A stretch of DNA of 64,000 nt, taken from an uncultured Lachnospiraceae bacterium (lineage in GTDB: Bacteria; Bacillota; Clostridia; Lachnospirales; Lachnospiraceae). The stretch lies in assembly GCA_946405625.1 (NCBI GenBank), contig CAMJHQ010000008.1:1-64000 (forward strand). Reading direction: 5' to 3'. The notes below the pieces were generated by a model. The model did no database searches and had not been told where the DNA came from. It saw only the letters and a program-made list of their open reading frames with translations. The position numbers and the translations under genes are program-made. This document shows, piece after piece, positions 49,906 through 62,988 of the stretch. How positions within the stretch are numbered: the first letter of the stretch is position 1; every line of letters starts with the position of its first letter.

Positions 49906-50889
49906 TCAGCCTTCTATTATCAAAGCTCTTACCATGCCCGGAATATCATAATCTCTCTTGCCTGCACCGATTCCGACTTTCAGAACACTGAAGCTCTCAG
50001 GCAGTTTATCATCTGTTTTAACCGCTGCTGCAAATGCCACTCCCGTCGGAGTTACATATTCGCCTTGTCTTTCTGTTATCGCTATCTTCACACCGGTCTG
50101 CTCAGCTATCTTCATAACTGCCGGTACCGGAACCGGAATCACACCATGCTGGCATCTTATTGTTCCGCATCCGTCAACAAGACGTGTTACGATACATTTC
50201 TGAATATCATTCTTCTTTATAAGATCATCAAAGCAGACAGCCGCCGAAAGAATATCAACTATAGAATCCACGGCTCCGACCTCATGGAAATGTACCTCAT
50301 CCACCGGTCTGTCATGTACCGCTCCTTCTGCCTCTGCCACAATGCCGAATATCTTAAGAGCAAGGCTTCTTGCGCCTTCACTCATTTCAGTCTTCTCTAT
50401 AATCGCCTTTACATCATGGAAACTTCTATGCTCATGATGATGGTGGCCATGTCCGTCTTCATGGTGGTGATGGCCATGTTCATCGTGGTGATGATGATCG
50501 TGCTCATCCTCATGATGGTGATGACCGTGCTCATCTTCATGGTGATGATCGTGCTCATCCTCATGATGATGATGACCGTGCTCATCTTCGTCGTGGTGAT
50601 GATGGTGATGATCATGTTCATTATGGTGGCCGTCATTATGATTATGACCGTACAGATAATCCATATCATGATCATGATTGTCATTATCCAGAATTACATC
50701 AAAATCACAAGCTCCTATCCCGGCCTTTGCAACCCTTGATATCTTTACATCAAAGCCGCCGACAACCGTCTTCAGGCTGGCAAGCATTTTATCCAGCACT
50801 TCTCTGTCTGCCCCCAGATCAAGAAGTGCGGCAACGGACATATCTCCGCTTATACCTGTATTACATTCTATATAAATCGATCTGCTCAT
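49906..50889 (-). CDS. larC: Nickel-pincer cofactor protein LarC, N-terminal part only
   Basis: 327 aa. LarC inserts nickel into the pyridinium cofactor of lactate racemase and related enzymes. The start MSRSIYIECNTGISGDMSVAALLDLGAD, HFHEVGAVDSIVDI and VTPTGVAFAAAV are typical. Residues 80-155 form a very long His/Asp/Glu run (about eight HGHHHHEDE-type units), the metal-storage loop of the family. The protein ends at VGIGAGKRDYDIPGMVRALI, where full LarC continues with a C-terminal (LarC2) domain of about 130-150 residues. That domain is missing: the ribosome site of the next gene follows the stop at once. Confidence 0.85.
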   Translation of the reverse strand: MSRSIYIECNTGISGDMSVAALLDLGADREVLDKMLASLKTVVGGFDVKISRVAKAGIGACDFDVILDNDNHDHDMDYLYGHNHNDGHHNEHDHHHHHHDEDEHGHHHHEDEHDHHHEDEHGHHHHEDEHDHHHHDEHGHHHHEDGHGHHHHEHRSFHDVKAIIEKTEMSEGARSLALKIFGIVAEAEGAVHDRPVDEVHFHEVGAVDSIVDILSAAVCFDDLIKKNDIQKCIVTRLVDGCGTIRCQHGVIPVPVPAVMKIAEQTGVKIAITERQGEYVTPTGVAFAAAVKTDDKLPESFSVLKVGIGAGKRDYDIPGMVRALIIEG

Positions 50890-53758: not shown

Positions 53759-54664
53759 CTAGTTGTAGAACGCTTCCAGATTTCTCTTAAAAAGCTTTGC
53801 AGGTCTGTGGCCCGCTCCGCCGAGCATTTCACTTGTTTCTATTACAAACGGAGCAATCTTTCTTCTGAAGTTTGGTGTGAGAAGCTTCTCTCCGAGAACG
53901 ATCTCATATGCTTCCTGAAGGCTGTAAAGCGTAAACTTCTCAGGCATAAGGTCAAAGATTATTCTGCCCGCGTCATCTGCCTTCTCATGAAGTGACTTGA
54001 ACGCTCTGGTTATGATCTCTGCATGATCAAATGCGAGTCTTCCGCCTTCTATTATTTCATAATTTACTGTCTCATGATGATCGGAGAAAGTTCTCGTCTC
54101 TTCAACGATCGATTCAATCCTTTCACCAAGTGATTTATTCTCGAAAACCAGTTCATATCTGGTATTTATCTCTGCAGAGTTAGCCTTAACATGCTTCTTC
54201 ATCTCACTCATGTTTATATCGATCGTGAACCAGGCAGCTTCACCCGCATCGGTTCCTGAAGCGACATTACATTTTGATGCATCAACAAGAGCAAGATAAG
54301 CCTGTGAAGTAATCCATCCTCTCGGATCTCTGTCCGGAGCACTGAAAAAGCCGAACGGCTCAAGAAATGCACTGTCAACTGATGTTTCCTCTCTCAGCTC
54401 ACGAAGTGCTGTATCGCGAAGTTCTTCACCCTTCTGTGCAAATCCACCCGGAAGTGCCCAGTAATCCTTATACGGAAAGCCTCCTCTTTTGATAAGAAGA
54501 ACGCCCAGTTTCTGCACCGGATCTTTTCTATATTCTTCACTCTCTTCTTCCTTCAGAATAGCAAACACTGCTATATCTGCCGTAAGAGACGGGCGCTCAA
54601 ATGCTGAAATATCATATGACTTCAGAAATTCCTTTTCCTCTTTTGACATCTTATATTCTCTCAC
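53759..54664 (-). CDS. NrtR-type Nudix transcription regulator of NAD metabolism
   Basis: 301 aa. N-terminal Nudix domain with the box GGFAQKGEELRDTALRELRE and then ETSV: the core Glu residues are kept but the final Gly is Ser, so hydrolase activity may be lost. The C-terminal part has a winged-helix stretch, FTLYSLQEAYEIVLGEKLL then TPNFRRKI, as in NrtR. NrtR binds ADP-ribose or NAD-related ligands and represses NAD salvage genes; pncB directly downstream fits. The GTG start is supported by GGAGGAG. It could also be a Nudix enzyme only, but the tail makes regulation likely. Confidence 0.85.
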   Translation of the reverse strand: MREYKMSKEEKEFLKSYDISAFERPSLTADIAVFAILKEEESEEYRKDPVQKLGVLLIKRGGFPYKDYWALPGGFAQKGEELRDTALRELREETSVDSAFLEPFGFFSAPDRDPRGWITSQAYLALVDASKCNVASGTDAGEAAWFTIDINMSEMKKHVKANSAEINTRYELVFENKSLGERIESIVEETRTFSDHHETVNYEIIEGGRLAFDHAEIITRAFKSLHEKADDAGRIIFDLMPEKFTLYSLQEAYEIVLGEKLLTPNFRRKIAPFVIETSEMLGGAGHRPAKLFKRNLEAFYN

Positions 54665-54738
54665 TTCGATCTCTCCTCCGTTCTGGTTTGTATATAGTTA
54701 ATAATATATCCTTTTTTATTTACAAAAACAATCTATTT

Positions 54739-54753
54739 TTATTATTTTGATAA
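54739..54753. promoter_or_regulatory. TTATCAT-type site upstream of nrtR
   Basis: TTATTATTTTGATAA differs by one base from the site at 55812-55826. It lies upstream of a promoter-like pair for nrtR (TTGTTT, 17 bp, TATATT). Confidence 0.4.
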
Positions 54754-54835
54754 TATCATTTTTGAAAAAATAAGATAATTACAGGTTCAGCTTAAGATCA
54801 TCCCTAAAATGATCCTGAAATTATCCTAAATTCAT

Positions 54836-54939
54836 TACTTACTTTCAGGCATAAAATGTAATATTCCGCTACTTACCTTCAGGTACAAAATAGTAATATT
54901 CCGCTACTTGCCCTCAGGTACAAAATAGTAATATTCCGC
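54836..54939. repeat. Tandem copies of a gene 3' end
   Basis: Three copies with period 34-35 bp (54836, 54870, 54905) of TACTTGCCCTCAGGTACAAA and following. The last copy is the end of the gene at 54904-55677 (encoding EYYYFVPEGK and stop); the other two lie beyond its stop codon. Confidence 0.85.
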
Positions 54940-55677
54940 CTGATTCATATTGGTAATATCAAGAGCGATACTTCCGCCATCCTGAATATAAAAACCATAG
55001 TATGGTGTGATCACCGTGCCCGAATCACTATATAAATCATTTCCGTCAATAACGCATTTCTCATTTTCCAGAATGAGACATATTAAATTTGACTTATCAT
55101 ATTTATCATATAATGCAAACTTTTCGTCCAGCTCTTCTTTAGTCACACCGTATCTGCCAAGATCCTCTGTTAAATACTTATAAGCATCTTCGCCCTTCAG
55201 GAACTTATAATGACCTTCATAATAATAATTATCATAAACGCCTTTATCCTTGTAGTACCTGAATTTATTTCCCGGTTCAGGAACCAGATATGAATTGCTG
55301 TATGTTTCAACCCAGTTATTTTCTGCCAGCAGATCTACTTTTGTCGAAGCGGAACTGTCCGTTCCCAGAATTCCGTGACTCTTTATCACTGCACCGATTA
55401 TCCCAAGAATAATGAAAAAACCTATCGCCAAAACAATTCCAACAATCAGTCCTGTATTATTCTTTTGGGCAGAATACGGATTCCCCTGCGGCATCAGTGG
55501 CTGCGGATATCCCTGCTGCGGATATCCCTGCTGACCATATCCCTGCATCACTCCCTGCTGCGGATATCCCTGCCGGCCGTAGCCCTGCTGTGGATATCCC
55601 GGCTGACCATATCCCTGCATCAATCCGGGCTGTGAATAATTCTGACTCTGCGAATTATAATACAGATTGTTGTCCAT
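54904..55677 (-). CDS. Membrane protein with QGYPQQGYG repeats, paralogue A
   Basis: 257 aa. N-terminal 65 residues are Gln/Gly/Tyr/Pro repeats ([10 protein letters not shown] units), then one membrane helix (about 76-98), then a domain of about 155 residues outside: [47 protein letters not shown], and a final PYYGFYI...NMNQAEYYYFVPEGK. The repeats resemble disordered phase-separating segments. The next gene is a close paralogue. It is controlled by the promoter and palindromes at 55754-55826. I do not recognise the domain. Confidence 0.75.
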   Translation of the reverse strand: MDNNLYYNSQSQNYSQPGLMQGYGQPGYPQQGYGRQGYPQQGVMQGYGQQGYPQQGYPQPLMPQGNPYSAQKNNTGLIVGIVLAIGFFIILGIIGAVIKSHGILGTDSSASTKVDLLAENNWVETYSNSYLVPEPGNKFRYYKDKGVYDNYYYEGHYKFLKGEDAYKYLTEDLGRYGVTKEELDEKFALYDKYDKSNLICLILENEKCVIDGNDLYSDSGTVITPYYGFYIQDGGSIALDITNMNQAEYYYFVPEGK

Positions 55678-55753
55678 GATTTCTTATCTCCCCTACACAT
55701 TTTTTACTTTATAACCCTAAATTATCCGGATTTAAAACCTTCCTTATCCGAAC

Positions 55754-55804
55754 ATATTATCATGATGATAATATGATTATAAATCCCTAAAAACTGTATG
55801 TCAA
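55754..55804 (-). promoter_or_regulatory. Consensus promoter with 21-bp palindrome
   Basis: TTGACA (55799-55804), 17 bp, TATAAT (55776-55781): a full consensus sigma-A promoter on the minus strand. A perfect palindrome, ATATTATCAT-G-ATGATAATAT (55754-55774), starts right after the -10 box, where a repressor would block the start. A second site lies upstream at 55812-55826. Confidence 0.8.
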
Positions 55805-55811
55805 GGAGAAA

Positions 55812-55826
55812 TTATCATTTTGATAA
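55812..55826. promoter_or_regulatory. Second TTATCA/TGATAA site
   Basis: TTATCA-TTT-TGATAA, 8 bp upstream of the -35 box of the promoter at 55754-55804. Same half-site as in the downstream palindrome. Confidence 0.6.
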
Positions 55827-55843
55827 AATGTATTTTATTTAGC

Positions 55844-56824
55844 TCATTTACTTTCCGGAGTAAAGAAATAATACTCAGCCATATTCATATTTGCCACATC
55901 AAGGCCTTGTCCTTCTATATAACAGCCATAATATGGTGAAGTCACAGTACCTTGTCCCTCTAATGTATTTTCTCCGTCAATCCAGCACTTTTCATTATAA
56001 AGAACAAAGCACACCAGGTTTTCCTTGGTATACTGCGGATTCATTGCAATTATCTGATCAAGCTCTTCTTTAGTCACTCCGTAACTGCTGAGATTCTCGG
56101 TAACATACCTATAAGCCTCTTCTCCACTATAATATTCATAATGTCCTTCATAATAGTAATTATCATAAACACCCTTATCCTTATAATACTTAAATGTACC
56201 ATCTGATTCCGGTACAAGATAAGAGTTTCCATGTATCTCATTCCAGTTATTCTTTATAAAATATTCTCGTCCACCCGGCTTATTGCCGCCCTTGGCCTTC
56301 CATAATATAGCCACTACTCCGATAACAAGAATCACTCCCACAACCATGATGATGCCGGCAACCAGTCCGAACTTCCTTGGCGGATTTCCATATGGTCTGC
56401 CCTGTTGACCGTTCCCCTGCGGTGCTCCCTGCTGCGGATAGCCCTGCGGTGCTCCCTGCTGCGGATATCCCTGTGGCACTCCCTGCTGCGGATGCCCCTG
56501 CGGTGCTCCCTGCTGCGGATATCCCTGTGGCACTCCCTGCTGCGGATATCCCTGTGGTGCTCCCTGCTGCGGATACCCCTGCGGTGCTCCCTGCTGCGGA
56601 TAGCCCTGCTGACCGTACCCCTGCGGTGTTCCCTGCTGCGGATAGCCCTGCTGACCGTACCCCTGCGGTGTTCCCTGCTGCGGATACCCCTGCTGACCGT
56701 ACCCCTGCGGTGTTCCCTGCTGCGGATATCCCTGCTGACCGTACCCCTGCGGTGTTCCCTGCTGCGGATATCCCTGCTGGCCATATCCCTGCGGCTGCGA
56801 ATTGTAATTCTGATTATTATCCAT
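55844..56824 (-). CDS. Membrane protein with QGYPQQGTP repeats, paralogue B
   Basis: 326 aa from the ATG at 56824 (AAAGGA 8 nt upstream). Residues 8-130 are about fourteen repeats of GYPQQGAPQ or [15 protein letters not shown] membrane helix (about 150-170) and an outer domain follow, homologous to paralogue [58 protein letters not shown] and [15 protein letters not shown]. The repeat array is longer than in paralogue A and is near-perfect at DNA level, so length variation between strains is likely. It is 66 bp downstream of the next gene and may share its promoter. Confidence 0.77.
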
Positions 56825-56890
56825 ACTTCCTATCCTTTCCATATAATCCTCAACACATATATAAATCCGACCGTTTCAGATCATTAACTA

Positions 56891-57358
56891 TCACAAAGTA
56901 ACTTCTTCCTGCTTTCTGATCATATCCGTCTTTTGTCTGAAGCGTTTATCTATCATCGGATTGACCACTACCAGATTTATAAACCATCCGATCACTCCGA
57001 CAATCACTGCTCCCCCTCCAAACATGAGCGCAAATTCTATAGATCCGACAAATGGTACAAACATCCATGGAAGCATACATACCACATAAGCAATAAGCGC
57101 TTTCTTAATATCTCCCGTAACTATCGTATAAAGTAAGATTGTCACCGCAAGACCTAACGGAACATAGAAGAAGAAAAGGCCCATAGCCGTTTCTCCCGAA
57201 TCCCATCCTTTTTGATTACCATACAAAAATGAAAATCCCGGAAAAGCCCAGCTCACGATTACAAGCATAGCTATATAAACAATAAGCCAGATTTTCTTAA
57301 AATGTTTTTCTTTATTTACATTTTCTTCATAAACATCATCAGATTTTATATCACCCAT
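56891..57358 (-). CDS. Membrane protein, four helices
   Basis: 155 aa from the ATG at 57358, chosen because AAGGGG is 7 nt upstream; the frame begins two codons earlier at a TTG. Helices at about residues 24-45, 55-75, 84-105 and 114-138. The loop before the second helix contains GNQKGWDSGETAMG. I do not recognise the family. It lies first after a perfect consensus promoter (57405-57433) and may be cotranscribed with paralogue B. Confidence 0.62.
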   Translation of the reverse strand: MGDIKSDDVYEENVNKEKHFKKIWLIVYIAMLVIVSWAFPGFSFLYGNQKGWDSGETAMGLFFFYVPLGLAVTILLYTIVTGDIKKALIAYVVCMLPWMFVPFVGSIEFALMFGGGAVIVGVIGWFINLVVVNPMIDKRFRQKTDMIRKQEEVTL

Positions 57359-57383
57359 AATCAAGCCCCTTCCCTTCTTTCCT

Positions 57384-57433
57384 TATTATCATTATGATAA
57401 TATCATTATAGATAAGGCTTATCATAATGTCAA
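57384..57433 (-). promoter_or_regulatory. Consensus promoter with two palindromes
   Basis: TTGACA (57428-57433), 17 bp, TATAAT (57405-57410) on the minus strand. The spacer holds GATAAG-G-CTTATC (57411-57423). Just after the -10 box lies TTATCAT-T-ATGATAA (57386-57400). This matches the arrangement upstream of paralogue A. Confidence 0.82.
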
Positions 57434-57474
57434 GCATTTATTTTGGGTATATTACTATGAATAGTAACAATCCA

Positions 57475-58038
57475 TCACATATTCTGGGCCAGGTCTATTC
57501 TCTGTCCTGCTTTTCGAGCCTCCGTAACCAGTTTTTCATATGTTTCCATATCGGATATAAATACGCAGTAGCTGTCACTATCTATATCCATATCGGCCAG
57601 AACATATCCTGAGGCAGCCCATTTCTCATTTAGTATTGTCGCCCACTGAGTAAATTCTTCCTCTTCATCAAACCATGTTTCCTCTATAGGAAGGGACTTA
57701 TCTCCCAAAATACCTTTAATGCAGTAAACAAAATCATCCCGTTCCACTTTCCAATCCATTTCAACCAAAAGATCGTTATCCTGAAAAGCATCTACCATTC
57801 CGATCCAGATGATCGTATCGTTATCTTCATCTTCTTCCATACATCTGTCATCATAATTATCCCGATACTCATTAAAATACGCCTTCGGATCATCAAAACA
57901 CTTATTCAGCCTCTCGGAAACCACGCCGTTCGTATCTATCAGCTTTACAATATTTCTGTATACTTCAATCTTATCTATATCATTATTAGTATTATCCTTA
58001 TCGTTATTCCGTCTGCCAAACATATTGAAAAGGCCCAT
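57475..58038 (-). CDS. Acidic cytosolic protein (DUF6630-like?)
   Basis: 187 aa from the ATG at 58038, eight nt after GGGAG; an earlier in-frame ATG at 58056 has its ribosome site too close. Acidic, with no membrane segment. The pattern WIGMVDAFQDNDLLVEMDWK, DDFVYCIKG, WATILNEKWAASGYVL and MDIDSDSYCVFI recalls small DUF6630 proteins (from memory, low certainty). It ends 42 bp before a promoter and starts 28 bp after the propeller-like membrane protein, so it is the second gene of that unit. Confidence 0.6.
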   Translation of the reverse strand: MGLFNMFGRRNNDKDNTNNDIDKIEVYRNIVKLIDTNGVVSERLNKCFDDPKAYFNEYRDNYDDRCMEEDEDNDTIIWIGMVDAFQDNDLLVEMDWKVERDDFVYCIKGILGDKSLPIEETWFDEEEEFTQWATILNEKWAASGYVLADMDIDSDSYCVFISDMETYEKLVTEARKAGQRIDLAQNM

Positions 58039-58066
58039 TTTTGTTACTCCCTTCATCCTTATAATA

Positions 58067-59734
58067 CTATTTCAGATCAACAACATACTCAACACTGTCT
58101 ATCCATTCCATATCATTTGTTTCATCATCTGTGGCATAAGCCGGAGTTGAATAAACAAGTATTTTATTATCGGATATTGCCATTCTGAAAGCCTCAATAT
58201 CGATATCTCTATAATCGATTCCGTCAGTGCATGTATCGATCACTTCCGAACCTGTTCCGTCCATGCCACATTTACAGATTTCAAATCCATCTTCCAAAAG
58301 ATGAATATAATATATCGCACCATTATGAACATTGAAAGATCCCACATCAGGAATATCAGCAATCGGAATATCTCGTTCAGATATCGAAAGATGGTTTTCT
58401 GACCCCTGAGGAGAAAGCGGTTTCTTGTCCATAATATACTTATACTGTCCGAAAGACTGCCTCCTTAAATTATAATATCCATGATAATCACTACCGTACA
58501 CCAGATAATAACTCAGGATTTCTCCATCAAAATGTGAGTCATATCTATCAATAACATCACTGAGATATAAAACCGGATCCGACAATGTATCGCCTTTAAT
58601 CTCGAAATATACTATCTTATTCTCTATTTTATCCGGATCATAATGTAATTTTTTCATCTCTTCATATGAAGTTGTACTTTGAACATATAATCTGTCATCA
58701 ATTATACAAAAGTCCTGAATCTGCTGTTTATTTTCCGGTACTATTATCTGCTCCGATTCACCTGTATCGACATCTACTTTTATAATTTCATATTCATTCG
58801 CCAGATAGATATATCCCTCATGATATCCTATGGAATAATGATTTCCCTCGCTTCTATATACTTCGGTTACATTTCCGTCACTATCCATTTTCTTTACAAT
58901 TTTATAATCGCCTTCTTTACCTTTCCCTTTCTCGGAGGACGCTATAAAGAAAAGTCCCTTTTCCGTACTTACGGCCTTATTCTGATAATTTCCGAGATAA
59001 GCCTCTTCCAGATCAGTTCTTCTCGCATGATCTTCCTTCTCATAGCTTCCGTAATTTTTCCTATAATCCATGCAGATTTTAAACGGCCTGAACCAATAAA
59101 TAAGAGTAATCTCAAAAAGAATAATTCCGACAATACCGACCTTCTTTAAAGTCTTTATTCTCTTTTCATCTTCTAACAGTTCATCTTCTTTTTTCTCACT
59201 GTCCGGATGAACCAGATTATTATACGCCGTAGATTTCTTATAGCTGAAATGGCATACCAATAACATTGTAATACAGTAAGAAATGAACAATAAACATACT
59301 ATTCCCGGCTTTGATACAAAGAAATATTTTAAACTATATTTTGCAAAAAGAACCGGGGTGAGAATATATATAACCACTCCCTCAAGAACACCTGCATATA
59401 TAAAAATGTCTGCTTTATACTCCGGAATTCTTTTCTTGATGATCAGTATTCTGTTGACTATCAGTGCAGCGATTGCCAGTATAATAACCAGCATCATCCA
59501 TCTGTTTAAATATACCCAGAATTCTCCTGACTTAACACTTATCTTTCCGAAAAGCACATCAAACAAATTCGAGGATCCATATAATTGCTTTTTTACTGAT
59601 TGCGGATAACTGAAAAATGGATCTCTGTTCAATAGCCTGTCATATTTCGAATAAAGATCCGGATTTAAAAAACATCCTAAAAAATTTATAAAATATAGAA
59701 ATATAATTATCGAAATAGCTGTAAGAATAATCAT
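58067..59734 (-). CDS. Membrane protein with beta-propeller-like domain
   Basis: 555 aa. About six membrane helices in residues 1-230 (first helix 2-22, others from about 78, 108, 140 and 200). The C-terminal 320 residues look like a DUF5050-type propeller outside the membrane, with repeated strands such as KGLFFIASSEKGKG, HEGYIYLANEYEIIKVD, DDRLYVQS and NGAIYYIHLLEDGFEICK. No catalytic motif is seen. The promoter upstream has TTGACA, 17 bp, TAGTAT and a related palindrome after the -10 box. Role unknown; perhaps a sensor. Confidence 0.65.
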   Translation of the reverse strand: MIILTAISIIIFLYFINFLGCFLNPDLYSKYDRLLNRDPFFSYPQSVKKQLYGSSNLFDVLFGKISVKSGEFWVYLNRWMMLVIILAIAALIVNRILIIKKRIPEYKADIFIYAGVLEGVVIYILTPVLFAKYSLKYFFVSKPGIVCLLFISYCITMLLVCHFSYKKSTAYNNLVHPDSEKKEDELLEDEKRIKTLKKVGIVGIILFEITLIYWFRPFKICMDYRKNYGSYEKEDHARRTDLEEAYLGNYQNKAVSTEKGLFFIASSEKGKGKEGDYKIVKKMDSDGNVTEVYRSEGNHYSIGYHEGYIYLANEYEIIKVDVDTGESEQIIVPENKQQIQDFCIIDDRLYVQSTTSYEEMKKLHYDPDKIENKIVYFEIKGDTLSDPVLYLSDVIDRYDSHFDGEILSYYLVYGSDYHGYYNLRRQSFGQYKYIMDKKPLSPQGSENHLSISERDIPIADIPDVGSFNVHNGAIYYIHLLEDGFEICKCGMDGTGSEVIDTCTDGIDYRDIDIEAFRMAISDNKILVYSTPAYATDDETNDMEWIDSVEYVVDLK

Positions 59735-59747
59735 TGTATCCTTCTTT

Positions 59748-59799
59748 CTTATTCTCGAAATGATAATAAGATACTACCACATTAATTTTGCCCTGTCAA
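59748..59799 (-). promoter_or_regulatory. Promoter with related palindrome
   Basis: TTGACA (59794-59799), 17 bp, TAGTAT (59771-59776) on the minus strand. Right after the -10 box lies CTTATTATCATTTCGAGAAT and AAG (59748-59770), an imperfect dyad with the same TTATCAT half-site as at 55754 and 57386. Confidence 0.65.
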
Positions 59800-59824
59800 C
59801 CATTTATCATCTGGCTGACAGGGC
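59790..59824 (-). terminator. Hairpin after the PurA-like gene
   Basis: GCCCTGTCAGCCA / TGGTTGACAGGGC, 13 bp with one G-U pair. No U-run follows; instead its 3' arm carries the TTGACA of the next promoter. It may end the upstream transcript weakly or separate the two units. Confidence 0.6.
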
Positions 59825-59854
59825 TGTGTGTGAGGATAAAAAACATGCACTGAA

Positions 59855-61069
59855 TTATGCAGTTTTTCTGGCGTAATTAACTCTACCATCTGTTCGGTAG
59901 ATTCTTTCTCGGGTTTCCCCATCCGATATATAATCAGCTTCTTCGCTGAACGGACTGTCATATTCATTTAAATGTGTAAGCGCTATACTCATATGTGCTT
60001 CACATTCGACCGGAAACCTTTCACTGTCGAAGTCTTCTCTTATTCTTTTCTTTAGAGCCTTAATATCCAGTTTTCCGTATCTTATTGTTCCCTGATAAGG
60101 ATTCGGTACATTTGTCAGGTCTGACATGGCTGCATTTATCTCAGCCTTATCACACTCTCCTTCAAATCTGCCTGCACCGTGTCTTGTCACATAAGATCTT
60201 GTCACATAACAGACTTCAACATCTATTTTTTCATGATGCCTGCTGCTCCTATTATGAGCTGCTGCATCTTTTCTCATATGCATATATTCTCGGATCAGCT
60301 CCGCCGGATTGCGAAGTCCTGTACTACTTGGGGTTGTATTACATCCATACTCTTTTCTGCATCTGTCGAGCAGGAGTCCCTGACCATTCTCGAATATTAC
60401 CGTATCATAGTCAGCCAATATATCGGCTTCCCGGAGCTCCGTCAGACTGCACATAAGTCTGAAATCCAAGATATAATTATCTATAAGTCCTTTATCAGAT
60501 AGTATTCTATTCCATTCATCAGAAATCTCTTCAACACCGAGTTCCTTGAGACGATATGTCATATACTCTCTGCAATCCCTCGTAAGATAACTTCTCAGTT
60601 CATCATCACTCATTTCGATCATGTCCCCGAGTCGAATTCCCTGTCTTACAAGAGTCTCCCATATACCGACGCCACAGCTTCCGTGCCTTGCAGCACCTCT
60701 ATGCTGTTCTATGATCTGATTGATTATCATATCGTATGGTGTCGTTACCGGACTATCCGGATTCAGATATATTTTACCCATATCTTTCAGAAGCTCTTCA
60801 TATTCATTCATGAAGATCATCGGATTAAGGATGAAATATCCGGGAAGCCATGTATCAGCTCCCGCAAATGTTCCGGATCCGAAATGATGAAAGACATGTC
60901 TCATTCCAGAAGGAGATTTGACGGTATGCCCTCTCTGTGCGCCTCCGTTACTACAAATAACCAAAACCTTTTCGTCCTTCAATTCAGCTTCCGCTGCGAA
61001 AAAATCTGTAATCATACCTTTACCTTCATCGCCGAAGTTCGCACCTATCACAACTTTTACTTTTTGCAT
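59855..61069 (-). CDS. Divergent adenylosuccinate synthetase (PurA) paralogue
   Basis: 404 aa from the ATG at 61069, which has a perfect AAAGGAGGTGA site. The P-loop VVIGANFGDEGKGMITDFFA keeps the PurA catalytic Asp and the GDEGKG signature; the next motif is NGGAQRGHTV instead of GGNNAGHTV, but keeps the His. The IMP-site region reads RHGSCGVGIWETLVRQG, and the aspartate loop (usually VTGR...R) reads CYVTRSYVTRHGAGRFEGE. So it is a PurA-fold GTP enzyme that ligates an unknown amine to an unknown base, and not simply housekeeping PurA. It follows the vWA gene in one operon. Confidence 0.82.
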   Translation of the reverse strand: MQKVKVVIGANFGDEGKGMITDFFAAEAELKDEKVLVICSNGGAQRGHTVKSPSGMRHVFHHFGSGTFAGADTWLPGYFILNPMIFMNEYEELLKDMGKIYLNPDSPVTTPYDMIINQIIEQHRGAARHGSCGVGIWETLVRQGIRLGDMIEMSDDELRSYLTRDCREYMTYRLKELGVEEISDEWNRILSDKGLIDNYILDFRLMCSLTELREADILADYDTVIFENGQGLLLDRCRKEYGCNTTPSSTGLRNPAELIREYMHMRKDAAAHNRSSRHHEKIDVEVCYVTRSYVTRHGAGRFEGECDKAEINAAMSDLTNVPNPYQGTIRYGKLDIKALKKRIREDFDSERFPVECEAHMSIALTHLNEYDSPFSEEADYISDGETRERIYRTDGRVNYARKTA

Positions 61070-61190
61070 ACCGTCACCTCCTTTCACATCCCCGTGTGCT
61101 CCCCCTGTAGAGCTGCGGTTCCTAATTAACTTTTTATTATTCGAAGCTCACAGTTATCACCATGGTCTTCTTGATCAAAACTTCCCATTC

Positions 61191-62060
61191 TTACCAGGCA
61201 ATTCCTGATGCCATAGGAAGTTCAACCTGTCCTCTCCTGAGTGAGTTGTTTCCTGCTTCATAGGTAACAATTTTAATAATCTCACCTGTTAAATCTTTCA
61301 GTCTTACAACCTTGAAATGATCTTTATCCATAATCTTCTCCCAGGTTTTGATAAAGCTGCCATTATTTACGTAAATGCGATGATTTACAAACAGATGATA
61401 TACTTCATATTTTTCCTGAACGCTTTCGAACAAAGCCTCTGTTTCAACATCTTCACCTATTTCACGGCCTGTAATATCATAAATCCTTTCTGCCGAAAGA
61501 TATGGATTTACTCCTTCATCACCCATTGTGATGATTATTCCTTTTCGGTCTCTTTCCCATGCATCAAGCTTCACATGATTAAGTCCGAAATACCATGCGG
61601 CGGTATAAGATTCATACGCATTCCCGCCTCCGCCAAACTCGAAATATATTTTATCCAGCTGTTCAGCTATCCTTATATCCGATTCAAACTGAGAAACCTG
61701 TAACGGGTATCTGTCATATGCGAAATCTCCGATGCCCATTACCATGAACTCAACATCCTTTACTTTCTCATAAAGCTTCGTCATTATGATATTGAGCTGC
61801 TTGGCAACTTCTACAGCTGCCTGACCCATAGATCCGGTAACATCAAGCGCCAGGATTACCGGTATTGTTTCCGGATGTTCTTCTGTATCGCAGCACTCTC
61901 TCATTACATCCTTCGGATCAAGCATCGGGTCTAAAGTTCTTGCGCCAAACATTTCCTGATTACTCAGATTTCCGGCTATGCATCCCTTTTTATCTACTGT
62001 TCTTCCTGCTCTTCTTGAATACTGTATGAATGTATCTTCTCGCCATATTCCGCTACCCAT
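61191..62060 (-). CDS. von Willebrand A domain protein
   Basis: 289 aa from the ATG at 62060 (GGAGG five nt upstream). The metal-dependent adhesion site of the vWA fold is clear: ALDVTGSMGQAA (DxTGSMG; Thr in place of the first Ser), later Thr in the ESYTAAWYF region, and the Asp in IITMGDEGV. No signal peptide or membrane helix, so it is cytosolic and likely part of a complex, as with TerY-like or MoxR-associated vWA proteins. It starts with GSGIWREDTFIQYSRRAGRT and reaches a conserved-looking QVELPMASGIAW end. It stands between the unknown 195-aa protein and the PurA paralogue on the same strand. Confidence 0.8.
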   Translation of the reverse strand: MGSGIWREDTFIQYSRRAGRTVDKKGCIAGNLSNQEMFGARTLDPMLDPKDVMRECCDTEEHPETIPVILALDVTGSMGQAAVEVAKQLNIIMTKLYEKVKDVEFMVMGIGDFAYDRYPLQVSQFESDIRIAEQLDKIYFEFGGGGNAYESYTAAWYFGLNHVKLDAWERDRKGIIITMGDEGVNPYLSAERIYDITGREIGEDVETEALFESVQEKYEVYHLFVNHRIYVNNGSFIKTWEKIMDKDHFKVVRLKDLTGEIIKIVTYEAGNNSLRRGQVELPMASGIAW

Positions 62061-62141
62061 ATGTTCCTCCTTTCCGACCATTCGGTCTTATCTGATCTTT
62101 TCCTCCATTTTTTTGCAAATCACCTGATCGGGCATTTCCAA

Positions 62142-62270
62142 CCTTCACTAATTTATTCACCCGACCAGGCATTGCATCCCTTCACTATTTGACGATTCCT
62201 GTTTGACCGATTGACATTTACCTTCACTAAAATATATATCGTCAGACGATCATTAAAACCTTCACTAATT
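62142..62270. repeat. Degenerate ~38-bp repeat between vWA and the 195-aa gene
   Basis: CCTTCACTA recurs at 62142, 62179, 62221 and 62259 (spacings 37, 42, 38), each followed by A/T-rich DNA and a GACC- or GATC-containing segment. ATCGTC-T-GACGAT and GACC-GAAT-GGTC dyads also occur in this gap. Confidence 0.6.
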
Positions 62271-62284
62271 ACTCATCAATCCGA

Positions 62285-62872
62285 TCAAACATCATCGTCA
62301 TCTTCAAAAGCATCCCCTGCTCCGTCATCCTCATCCATATCGAAGAGTCCTTCGAAAAGTCCGTCACTCTGTTTACCGAGCAACATAAGCGGAAGTATTC
62401 CGTTCAGATTGTTATTTGCATTTCCGTTTCCCTTCATCATTTCGGAAAGCATCATGTACTTCATTATCTTTCCAGGTCCCTTGCCCTTAGCAAGTCCACC
62501 TCCGAACATTGAAACGATCTTACCGTAGAAATATGTGTTCCCCATGAAAATGTGTCTTTCCGGAAGGATCTGTTCAACAGTAGAATCCTCATAATTGATT
62601 GCTGTTATTTTGTCCTTAGTTGCCTCAATGACACATTTCGGTTTTCCGTTAGCCAGGATAATGTCTCCCGCCTTTACCTTATTTGTCGGTATAACGAAGA
62701 AGAATTCTTCACCGACATTGAATACGAAACTGTCACAGTTCGTAAGCCGTCCGGAGGTAACTTCGTAGGTCTTGTAGCCGTTGGATGTCTTGATGGCCGT
62801 TCCTCCGTTCATTGATAACCTGCACATACCCGGTGCTATCTTTCCGAAAATCCCGTTAAACATGTTATTCAT
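62285..62872 (-). CDS. Unknown 195-aa protein with acidic tail
   Basis: 195 aa. AAGGAGG lies 7 nt before the ATG. The N-terminal 120 residues look like a beta-rich domain (GYKTYEVTSGRLTNCDSFVF, VGEEFFFVIPTNKVKAGDII, NGKPKCVI). A Gly/Met/Lys-rich segment (GGGLAKGKGPGKIMKYMML) and an extreme acidic end (DMDEDDGAGDAFEDDDDV) follow. No membrane helix. I do not recognise the family. It is the first gene of the unit with the vWA and PurA-like genes and has its own promoter with a palindromic spacer (62960-62988). Confidence 0.68.
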   Translation of the reverse strand: MNNMFNGIFGKIAPGMCRLSMNGGTAIKTSNGYKTYEVTSGRLTNCDSFVFNVGEEFFFVIPTNKVKAGDIILANGKPKCVIEATKDKITAINYEDSTVEQILPERHIFMGNTYFYGKIVSMFGGGLAKGKGPGKIMKYMMLSEMMKGNGNANNNLNGILPLMLLGKQSDGLFEGLFDMDEDDGAGDAFEDDDDV

Positions 62873-62959
62873 TTCAGTACCTCCTTCTCTTTTATATTCA
62901 ACAGGTTTCTTTTTATCATTCTGTTATTATCTGAATGTTTATATCTCTGTTGTGGGTAT

Positions 62960-62988
62960 ATCTTATAATCTTTTTGATAATATGTCAA
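62960..62988 (-). promoter_or_regulatory. Promoter with palindromic spacer
   Basis: TTGACA (62983-62988), 17 bp, TAAGAT (62960-62965) on the minus strand. The spacer is filled by a TATTATC-AAAAA-GATTATA dyad, a relaxed version of the TTATCAT-N-ATGATAA palindrome. It drives the 195-aa, vWA and PurA-like genes. Confidence 0.65.

Follow-up and report, generated by a model that had tools for sequence, protein, structure and literature searches.

A palindromic promoter element in Lachnospiraceae and its probable regulator of the NrtR family

Genes, promoters and palindromes of the cluster

The window analysed here is a stretch of 64,000 nt from an uncultured Lachnospiraceae bacterium (GCA_946405625.1, contig CAMJHQ010000008.1, positions 1–64,000 of the forward strand), whose own genome (G000) comprises 3.32 Mb in 70 contigs. 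It carries a cluster of minus-strand genes with strong promoters, at which a palindrome, ATATTATCA-N3-TGATAATAT, recurs. This palindrome is very likely the operator of NrtR, the proposed repressor, which is encoded in the same cluster (53759–54664, minus strand) and consists of a Nudix domain and a C-terminal winged helix. Gene starts were taken from our own caller of open reading frames.

The core operon begins with p195 (62285–62872), encoding a protein of 195 aa, and continues with genes for a vWA-like protein (61191–62063) and a PurA-like protein of the adenylosuccinate synthetase family (59855–61072; Pfam Adenylsucc_synt, 1.5e-28). The label of the vWA-like protein derives from its sequence (PHROG 2971, 8.2e-67); no Pfam family matched it. 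Further genes on the minus strand encode (i) a DUF5050-like membrane protein of 555 aa (58067–59734), slightly below the Pfam cut-off; (ii) a DUF6630 protein (57475–58056; Pfam 6.7e-38), sharing its strand with the 555-aa gene; (iii) a small membrane protein with four predicted segments (56891–57361); (iv) a repeat-rich (YPQQG) membrane protein (55844–56842), whose gene follows that of the small membrane protein after 49 bp; and (v) its paralogue (54904–55677), counterparts of which are likewise accompanied by sites in three further species. NCBIfam contained no family for p195 or the YPQ, DUF6630 and DUF5050-like proteins and, for the vWA and PurA-like proteins, only matches below the cut-off. 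A search with PADLOC returned weak matches only. Elsewhere in the window (49906–50889), a frame of 327 aa contains a long stretch rich in His, Asp and Glu.

Inspection of boxes and spacers confirmed the four minus-strand promoters with 17-bp spacers that a first-pass annotation of this DNA had proposed, each with the boxes and at the position given there. Two read TTGACA-17-TATAAT (55776–55804 and 57405–57433), one TTGACA-17-TAGTAT (59771–59799), and that of the p195-vWA-PurA-like operon TTGACA-17-TAAGAT (62960–62988). Putative operators cover the start regions of the first three, at 55753–55775 (score 31.6), 57382–57404 (33.5) and 59748–59770 (21.7), and fill the spacer between the −35 and −10 boxes of the fourth at 62962–62984 (23.5). 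These scores were computed with a weight matrix derived from 39 sites, three of which lie in the window. The perfect dyads of 21 bp (55754–55774) and 19 bp (57384–57402) were found exactly as annotated before. The two less regular ones, an imperfect dyad at 59748–59770 and a relaxed one at 62966–62982, gain support from conservation at orthologous promoters in relatives. The former has counterparts before the orthologous gene in genomes G273, G280 and G257, so that in three other species a site accompanies the orthologue of the 555-aa protein.

An additional site, earlier placed at 55812–55826, was seen as a putative second operator at 55808–55830, upstream of the −35 box (24.4), and has the same register in G280. 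A weak dyad downstream of the p195 promoter (62909–62931; 14.6) occupies the place of a second dyad that is clear in relatives and degenerate here. The extra site annotated before nrtR (54739–54753) is present at 54735–54757 as an operator-like sequence, although a weak one (15.5), and its counterpart in G273 is weaker still (12.9). Over the 64 kb, eight places reach a matrix score of at least 12, all between 54735 and 62984. Allowing up to three mismatches, the window contains nine matches to ATTATCATNATGATAAT, versus 1.74 expected; none of 100 shuffled windows reached nine.

Distribution of the palindrome and its target genes

In the own genome, ATTATCATNATGATAAT occurs 5 times without a mismatch, 8 times with one and 27 times with two, versus 0, 0 and 17 for a control palindrome of the same composition. 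All but one of the 13 sites with at most one mismatch lie outside genes of at least 100 aa, and 17 of the 27 two-mismatch sites lie inside genes, about the number expected by chance. The 13 best sites clearly exceed chance expectation; those with two mismatches form a mixed class. A random density of the motif across the genome, which the first-pass annotation had named as evidence against a regulon, was not seen in this comparison with the control palindrome.

Promoter registers were surveyed at 16 of 34 loci of the own genome, at locus L279 and in the window. The other 18 loci (L016, L018–L022, L025, L027, L029–L034, L038–L040 and L045) were left out because their matches lie inside a gene or far from one. 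Most commonly, the dyad starts directly after the −10 box of a TTGACA-N17-TATAAT-like promoter or overlaps its end. In another register, it fills the spacer, e.g. at the p195 promoter and at the promoter of a TIR protein at L036. In some cases there are two dyads, the second being located ahead of the −35 box or at a distance of 22 bp. In total, 82 of 86 sites were located at promoters, a proportion that is no enrichment test, as the loci had been preselected. An exact TTGACA was present in 13 of 16 upstream regions with a site in the own genome, versus 10 of 170 without one. Judged by sequence, this layout is that expected of repressor operators on strong promoters. Among 19 sites, a match over 14 nt of flanking DNA was found in only 2 of 171 pairs; the flanks are unrelated and the palindrome is therefore not a copied repeat. 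We regard the repeated palindrome as a real DNA switch site.

For comparison between genomes, many of which are metagenome assemblies, we used a sequence model of the site. Training sites for this model, as for the weight matrix, came from G000, G280, G253, G277 and G160. At E ≤ 0.01, the distinct places, which we counted from the table of model hits, numbered 20 in G000, 15 in G280 and 12 each in G273 and G257, the last two being outside the training set. Four other genomes had one (G306, G279) or none (G263, G294). The proposal of one repressor acting on a set of strong promoters is well supported by sequence, but the set is larger than the four first proposed, with 20 places in the own genome. 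Across the four expanded species, the nearest target genes, nrtR included, number 62 and fall into 31 groups, 19 of which occur in at least two species. A hydrophobic segment is predicted for 44 of these genes and a lipobox, by a simple rule, for 9. Target genes encode (i) a TIR_2/ThsB_TIR protein (L036); (ii) a TPR protein whose start is DnaJ-like, though below the Pfam cut-off (L037); (iii) a MoxR-type AAA protein (L046); (iv) an RHS-repeat lipoprotein (L028); (v) an LRR protein (L017); (vi) a solute-binding lipoprotein (L026); as well as (vii) a DUF5050-like protein, YPQ-repeat proteins and the products of the p195-vWA-PurA-like operon. There seems to be an NrtR regulon of 12–20 predicted sites in four related species, mostly before membrane protein and lipoprotein genes. 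One site in G280 lies between divergent genes, one of which (L135:1638–2312) resembles, by its sequence, RNA 2'-phosphotransferase, an enzyme using nicotinamide adenine dinucleotide (NAD); the gene on the opposite strand is an equally likely target.

Linkage of the operator to NrtR and to NAD-salvage operons

By its domains, the protein encoded at 53759–54664 is a member of the NrtR family (Pfam NUDIX, 57.2 versus a cut-off of 21.1 bits; NrtR_WHD, 63.8 versus 27 bits), and the solved folds 3gz5 and 3gz6 match across both domains. AraR_C also matched above its Pfam cut-off (28.6 versus 23.8 bits), and the best solved folds include AraR. The NCBIfam equivalog for an ADP-ribose responsive repressor scored 145.6 bits against a cut-off of 400, so that family membership does not imply the function of the equivalog.

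In 10 related genomes, p195, the vWA gene, the PurA-like gene and nrtR form a series on the same strand, and the operator stands at the promoter in front of it. Other genes lie between the PurA-like gene and nrtR in G257 and G253, and a frame of 88 aa in G282; the vWA gene is present in the set of G264. Upstream of p195, TTGACAT and the spacer dyad are kept within otherwise unalignable sequence in the 14 genomes for which this upstream DNA was compared. This first dyad, which is the site at 62962–62984 of the window and recurs in G160, has three mismatches in the own genome and four in G273. A second dyad follows 38–39 bp further on in 12 of the 14 genomes and is degenerate in the own genome and G273; in G160, the pair is 40 bp apart.

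The operator also co-occurs with the regulator. An NrtR of at least 64% identity is encoded in 17 of 61 genomes of the genus, and all 16 genomes with p195 are among these 17. At E ≤ 0.005, the sequence model found matches in all 17 NrtR-positive and in 6 of 44 NrtR-negative genomes (p = 1.9e-10); leaving out the five training genomes, the ratio was 12 of 12 versus 6 of 44. Five further genomes of the genus encode only a more distant NrtR (38–47% identity), and in the four of these that were looked at it stands beside NAPRT and other NAD-like genes, with no operator. In G285, nrtR consists of two pieces in different frames beside an NAPRT gene, and in G308, p195 contains stops (L181:6392–7351, L201).

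A scan for the exact promoter-operator among 84,980 species genomes yielded 20 stretches, including Eubacterium ruminantium FB3002 and the isolates NE2001 and AC2031. In 18 of them the element lies directly upstream of p195, and in the other two upstream of pncA. At L210, pncA, prs, nadV and nrtR come after the operator (Pfam Isochorismatase, Pribosyltran, NAMPT_N/NAPRTase and NrtR_WHD), and this NrtR shares 49% identity with its counterpart in the window. At L223, the operator precedes pncA, behind which a prs-like gene is soon cut off by the end of the stretch. Including G131, G056 and G009, the operator accompanies NAD-metabolism genes in five cases, and it lies upstream of NAD genes together with nrtR in three other genera. 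These salvage units of other Lachnospiraceae consist of pncA, followed in some by prs, nadV and nadE, with nrtR. The motif looks like the operator of a known family because it also precedes nrtR-containing NAD-salvage operons in other Lachnospiraceae. Given these operons, the motif is no orphan; operator and expansion look new.

Genes of the vWA-PurA type are also found near nrtR in more distant genera (G054, G242). In two other genera (L302:5729–8705, L303:3554–6630), the operator is followed by an SPFH-domain gene, a weakly NAD-kinase-like gene and then nrtR, an arrangement that, as predicted from gene order, is a third kind of NrtR-linked operon. The NrtR match of G047 (L310:5397–7610) lies within a frame of 737 aa starting just after the operator and is possibly fused to another domain. 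Among phage records, vWA relatives occur in 207 and PurA-like relatives in 224, mostly of Mycobacterium and also of Rhizobium and Vibrio. The human-gut phage scaffold MT835469 (L204) has p195, vWA and PurA-like genes side by side (66, 61 and 42% identity); the 16.8 kb seen contained neither an operator match with up to two mismatches nor NrtR.

Several observations weigh against NrtR as the cognate regulator. Within the genus, six NrtR-negative genomes carry one weak place each, and a plain exact-match profile separates the two groups modestly (3.6 versus 1.25 sites, p = 0.007). In the stretches seen of G306 and G272, p195 and nrtR are not neighbours. In the window, the site before nrtR itself is weak (15.5) and the neighbouring NAPRT gene has no site scoring at least 12 with the weight matrix. 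Outside the genus, 8 of 18 NrtR loci lack the operator, the upstream DNA of one (G089) being cut by a contig end. G092 and G089 keep the recognition stretch with no site in view, and G033 and G054 have a site but a diverged recognition stretch. At L210 and in G009, the site stands only at the operon front and none directly before nrtR. Co-transcription of NAPRT with nrtR is possible in the window. Taken together, linkage, co-occurrence and the NAD operons elsewhere fit best with NrtR as the repressor, to which the first-pass annotation had pointed.

Proposed mechanism, alternatives and biological meaning

In the mechanism we infer from the computed sites, promoter positions, conservation, linkage and expansion, an NrtR dimer would occupy the dyad and keep RNA polymerase off strong promoters, at which the dyad covers either the start region or the spacer between the −35 and −10 boxes. 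Cooperative binding is plausible because two dyads are present at several targets, separated by 22 or 38–40 bp or with one of them ahead of the −35 box. A ligand derived from NAD would be bound by the Nudix domain, whereupon the repressor would be released and the whole set induced. By analogy with the NrtR proteins studied so far, this ligand is most likely ADP-ribose, which is reported to release NrtR in Shewanella and Synechocystis (PMC4666351) and in Streptococcus sobrinus (PMC12735969).

A variant of this scheme, in which NrtR binds the operators and responds to another ligand, e.g. a sugar as with AraR or a product of the PurA-like enzyme, is possible, if unlikely. It draws on the AraR_C match and the AraR fold, and on the core operon not being an NAD operon in most genomes of the genus seen; operators before NAD-salvage genes in five genomes outside the genus type fit an NAD-linked signal instead. 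We consider it improbable that another transcription factor, such as a TetR-type repressor, binds the dyad and that NrtR is either carried along by linkage or itself one of the targets. A TetR gene does stand divergent from the perfect site at C2:20256, but was rejected as the shared regulator, its best relative in the genus having 32% identity. Another TetR gene lies directly downstream of nrtR in G256, G277 and G253; of 14 genomes with the operator, 11 encode an orthologue of it, among them the own genome. It was rejected as well, since it is missing from G264 (100% complete) and G274 (97%), both with the operator at p195; it is also missing from G282 (79%). In the operator-bearing NAD operons of five genomes, nrtR or NAD genes are the common element and no TetR is in view. 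This comparison of shared regulators covered the two TetR candidates among the regulators of these genomes. Finally, the motif is AT-rich and its two-mismatch sites inside genes are near chance level, but chance dyads were rejected by the window shuffles, the control palindrome (0 versus 13 sites with at most one mismatch), the fixed registers to promoters and the conservation at orthologous promoters, and copies of a mobile repeat by the unrelated flanks, so that the probability of either is negligible. A Fur-type box was considered too; its half-sites presumably face the other way.

NrtR as the regulator agrees with members of this family of Nudix-related repressors of NAD metabolism in Shewanella, Synechocystis, Streptococcus and Mycobacterium. 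They have the domain plan and fold in common, and in other Lachnospiraceae the operator precedes NAD-salvage genes together with nrtR. Palindromes of the family measure about 21–23 bp and vary strongly between clades, according to parts of PMC6800001 and PMC4666351, and the palindrome described here falls within this class. It is unlike the two operators given in the part of PMC6800001 compared. Further differences are the low equivalog score and the number of sites, 12–20 in each genome of four species, with most sites preceding genes outside NAD metabolism. A regulon outside NAD metabolism is reported for the AraR/XylR branch of Bacteroides, whose fold is shared with the NrtR of the window; AraR, however, controls pentose use and responds to arabinose (PMC4666351). 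No pentose or arabinose genes were found among the recognised target families, many targets being without a family.

Section 3.8 of PMC9503650 describes predicted conflict systems centred on an ADP-ribosylglycohydrolase, with Nudix-type repressors and vWA genes and with ADP-ribose as the proposed inducer. The adjacency of an NrtR-like repressor and a vWA gene is a likeness to these. None of ten window proteins matched an ADP-ribosylglycohydrolase in Pfam, the neighbouring genes of relatives having been scanned in part, and the main text of that paper mentions neither PurA nor adenylosuccinate. Among the papers listed, our literature search found no naming of the operator or of a Lachnospiraceae NrtR regulon, the motif list of the founding NrtR paper of 2008 (Rodionov) being outside the comparison. 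The regulator family is already known; what looks new is its operator in these Lachnospiraceae and a regulon enlarged to 12–20 sites.

In the genus of the window, the NAD genes of an nrtR-containing salvage unit would have been replaced by p195-vWA-PurA-like, with nrtR mostly kept downstream, and one group of species would then have gained the operator at numerous further promoters. This order, with the NAD-salvage operon first, is likely, the reverse less so. A further and rather doubtful idea is that NrtR acts as a global alarm regulator, with ADP-ribose from NAD cleavage by phage, toxin or TIR-type enzymes derepressing about 20 sites. If true, the joint output would comprise p195-vWA-PurA-like, which is phage-borne too, MoxR, TPR and TIR proteins and many lipoproteins and membrane proteins, and would represent a response to NAD damage or a defence response, not NAD homeostasis.

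The analysis names a likely regulator and operator for an otherwise uncharacterised set of genes that encode membrane proteins and lipoproteins in a lineage of the gut and rumen. Within one bacterial family, it offers steps that may lead from the repressor of an NAD-salvage operon to a regulator of many promoters, with comparable recognition residues. The vWA and PurA-like genes, which occur together in large phages without a known function, would thereby be tied to an NAD-linked switch, a testable lead.

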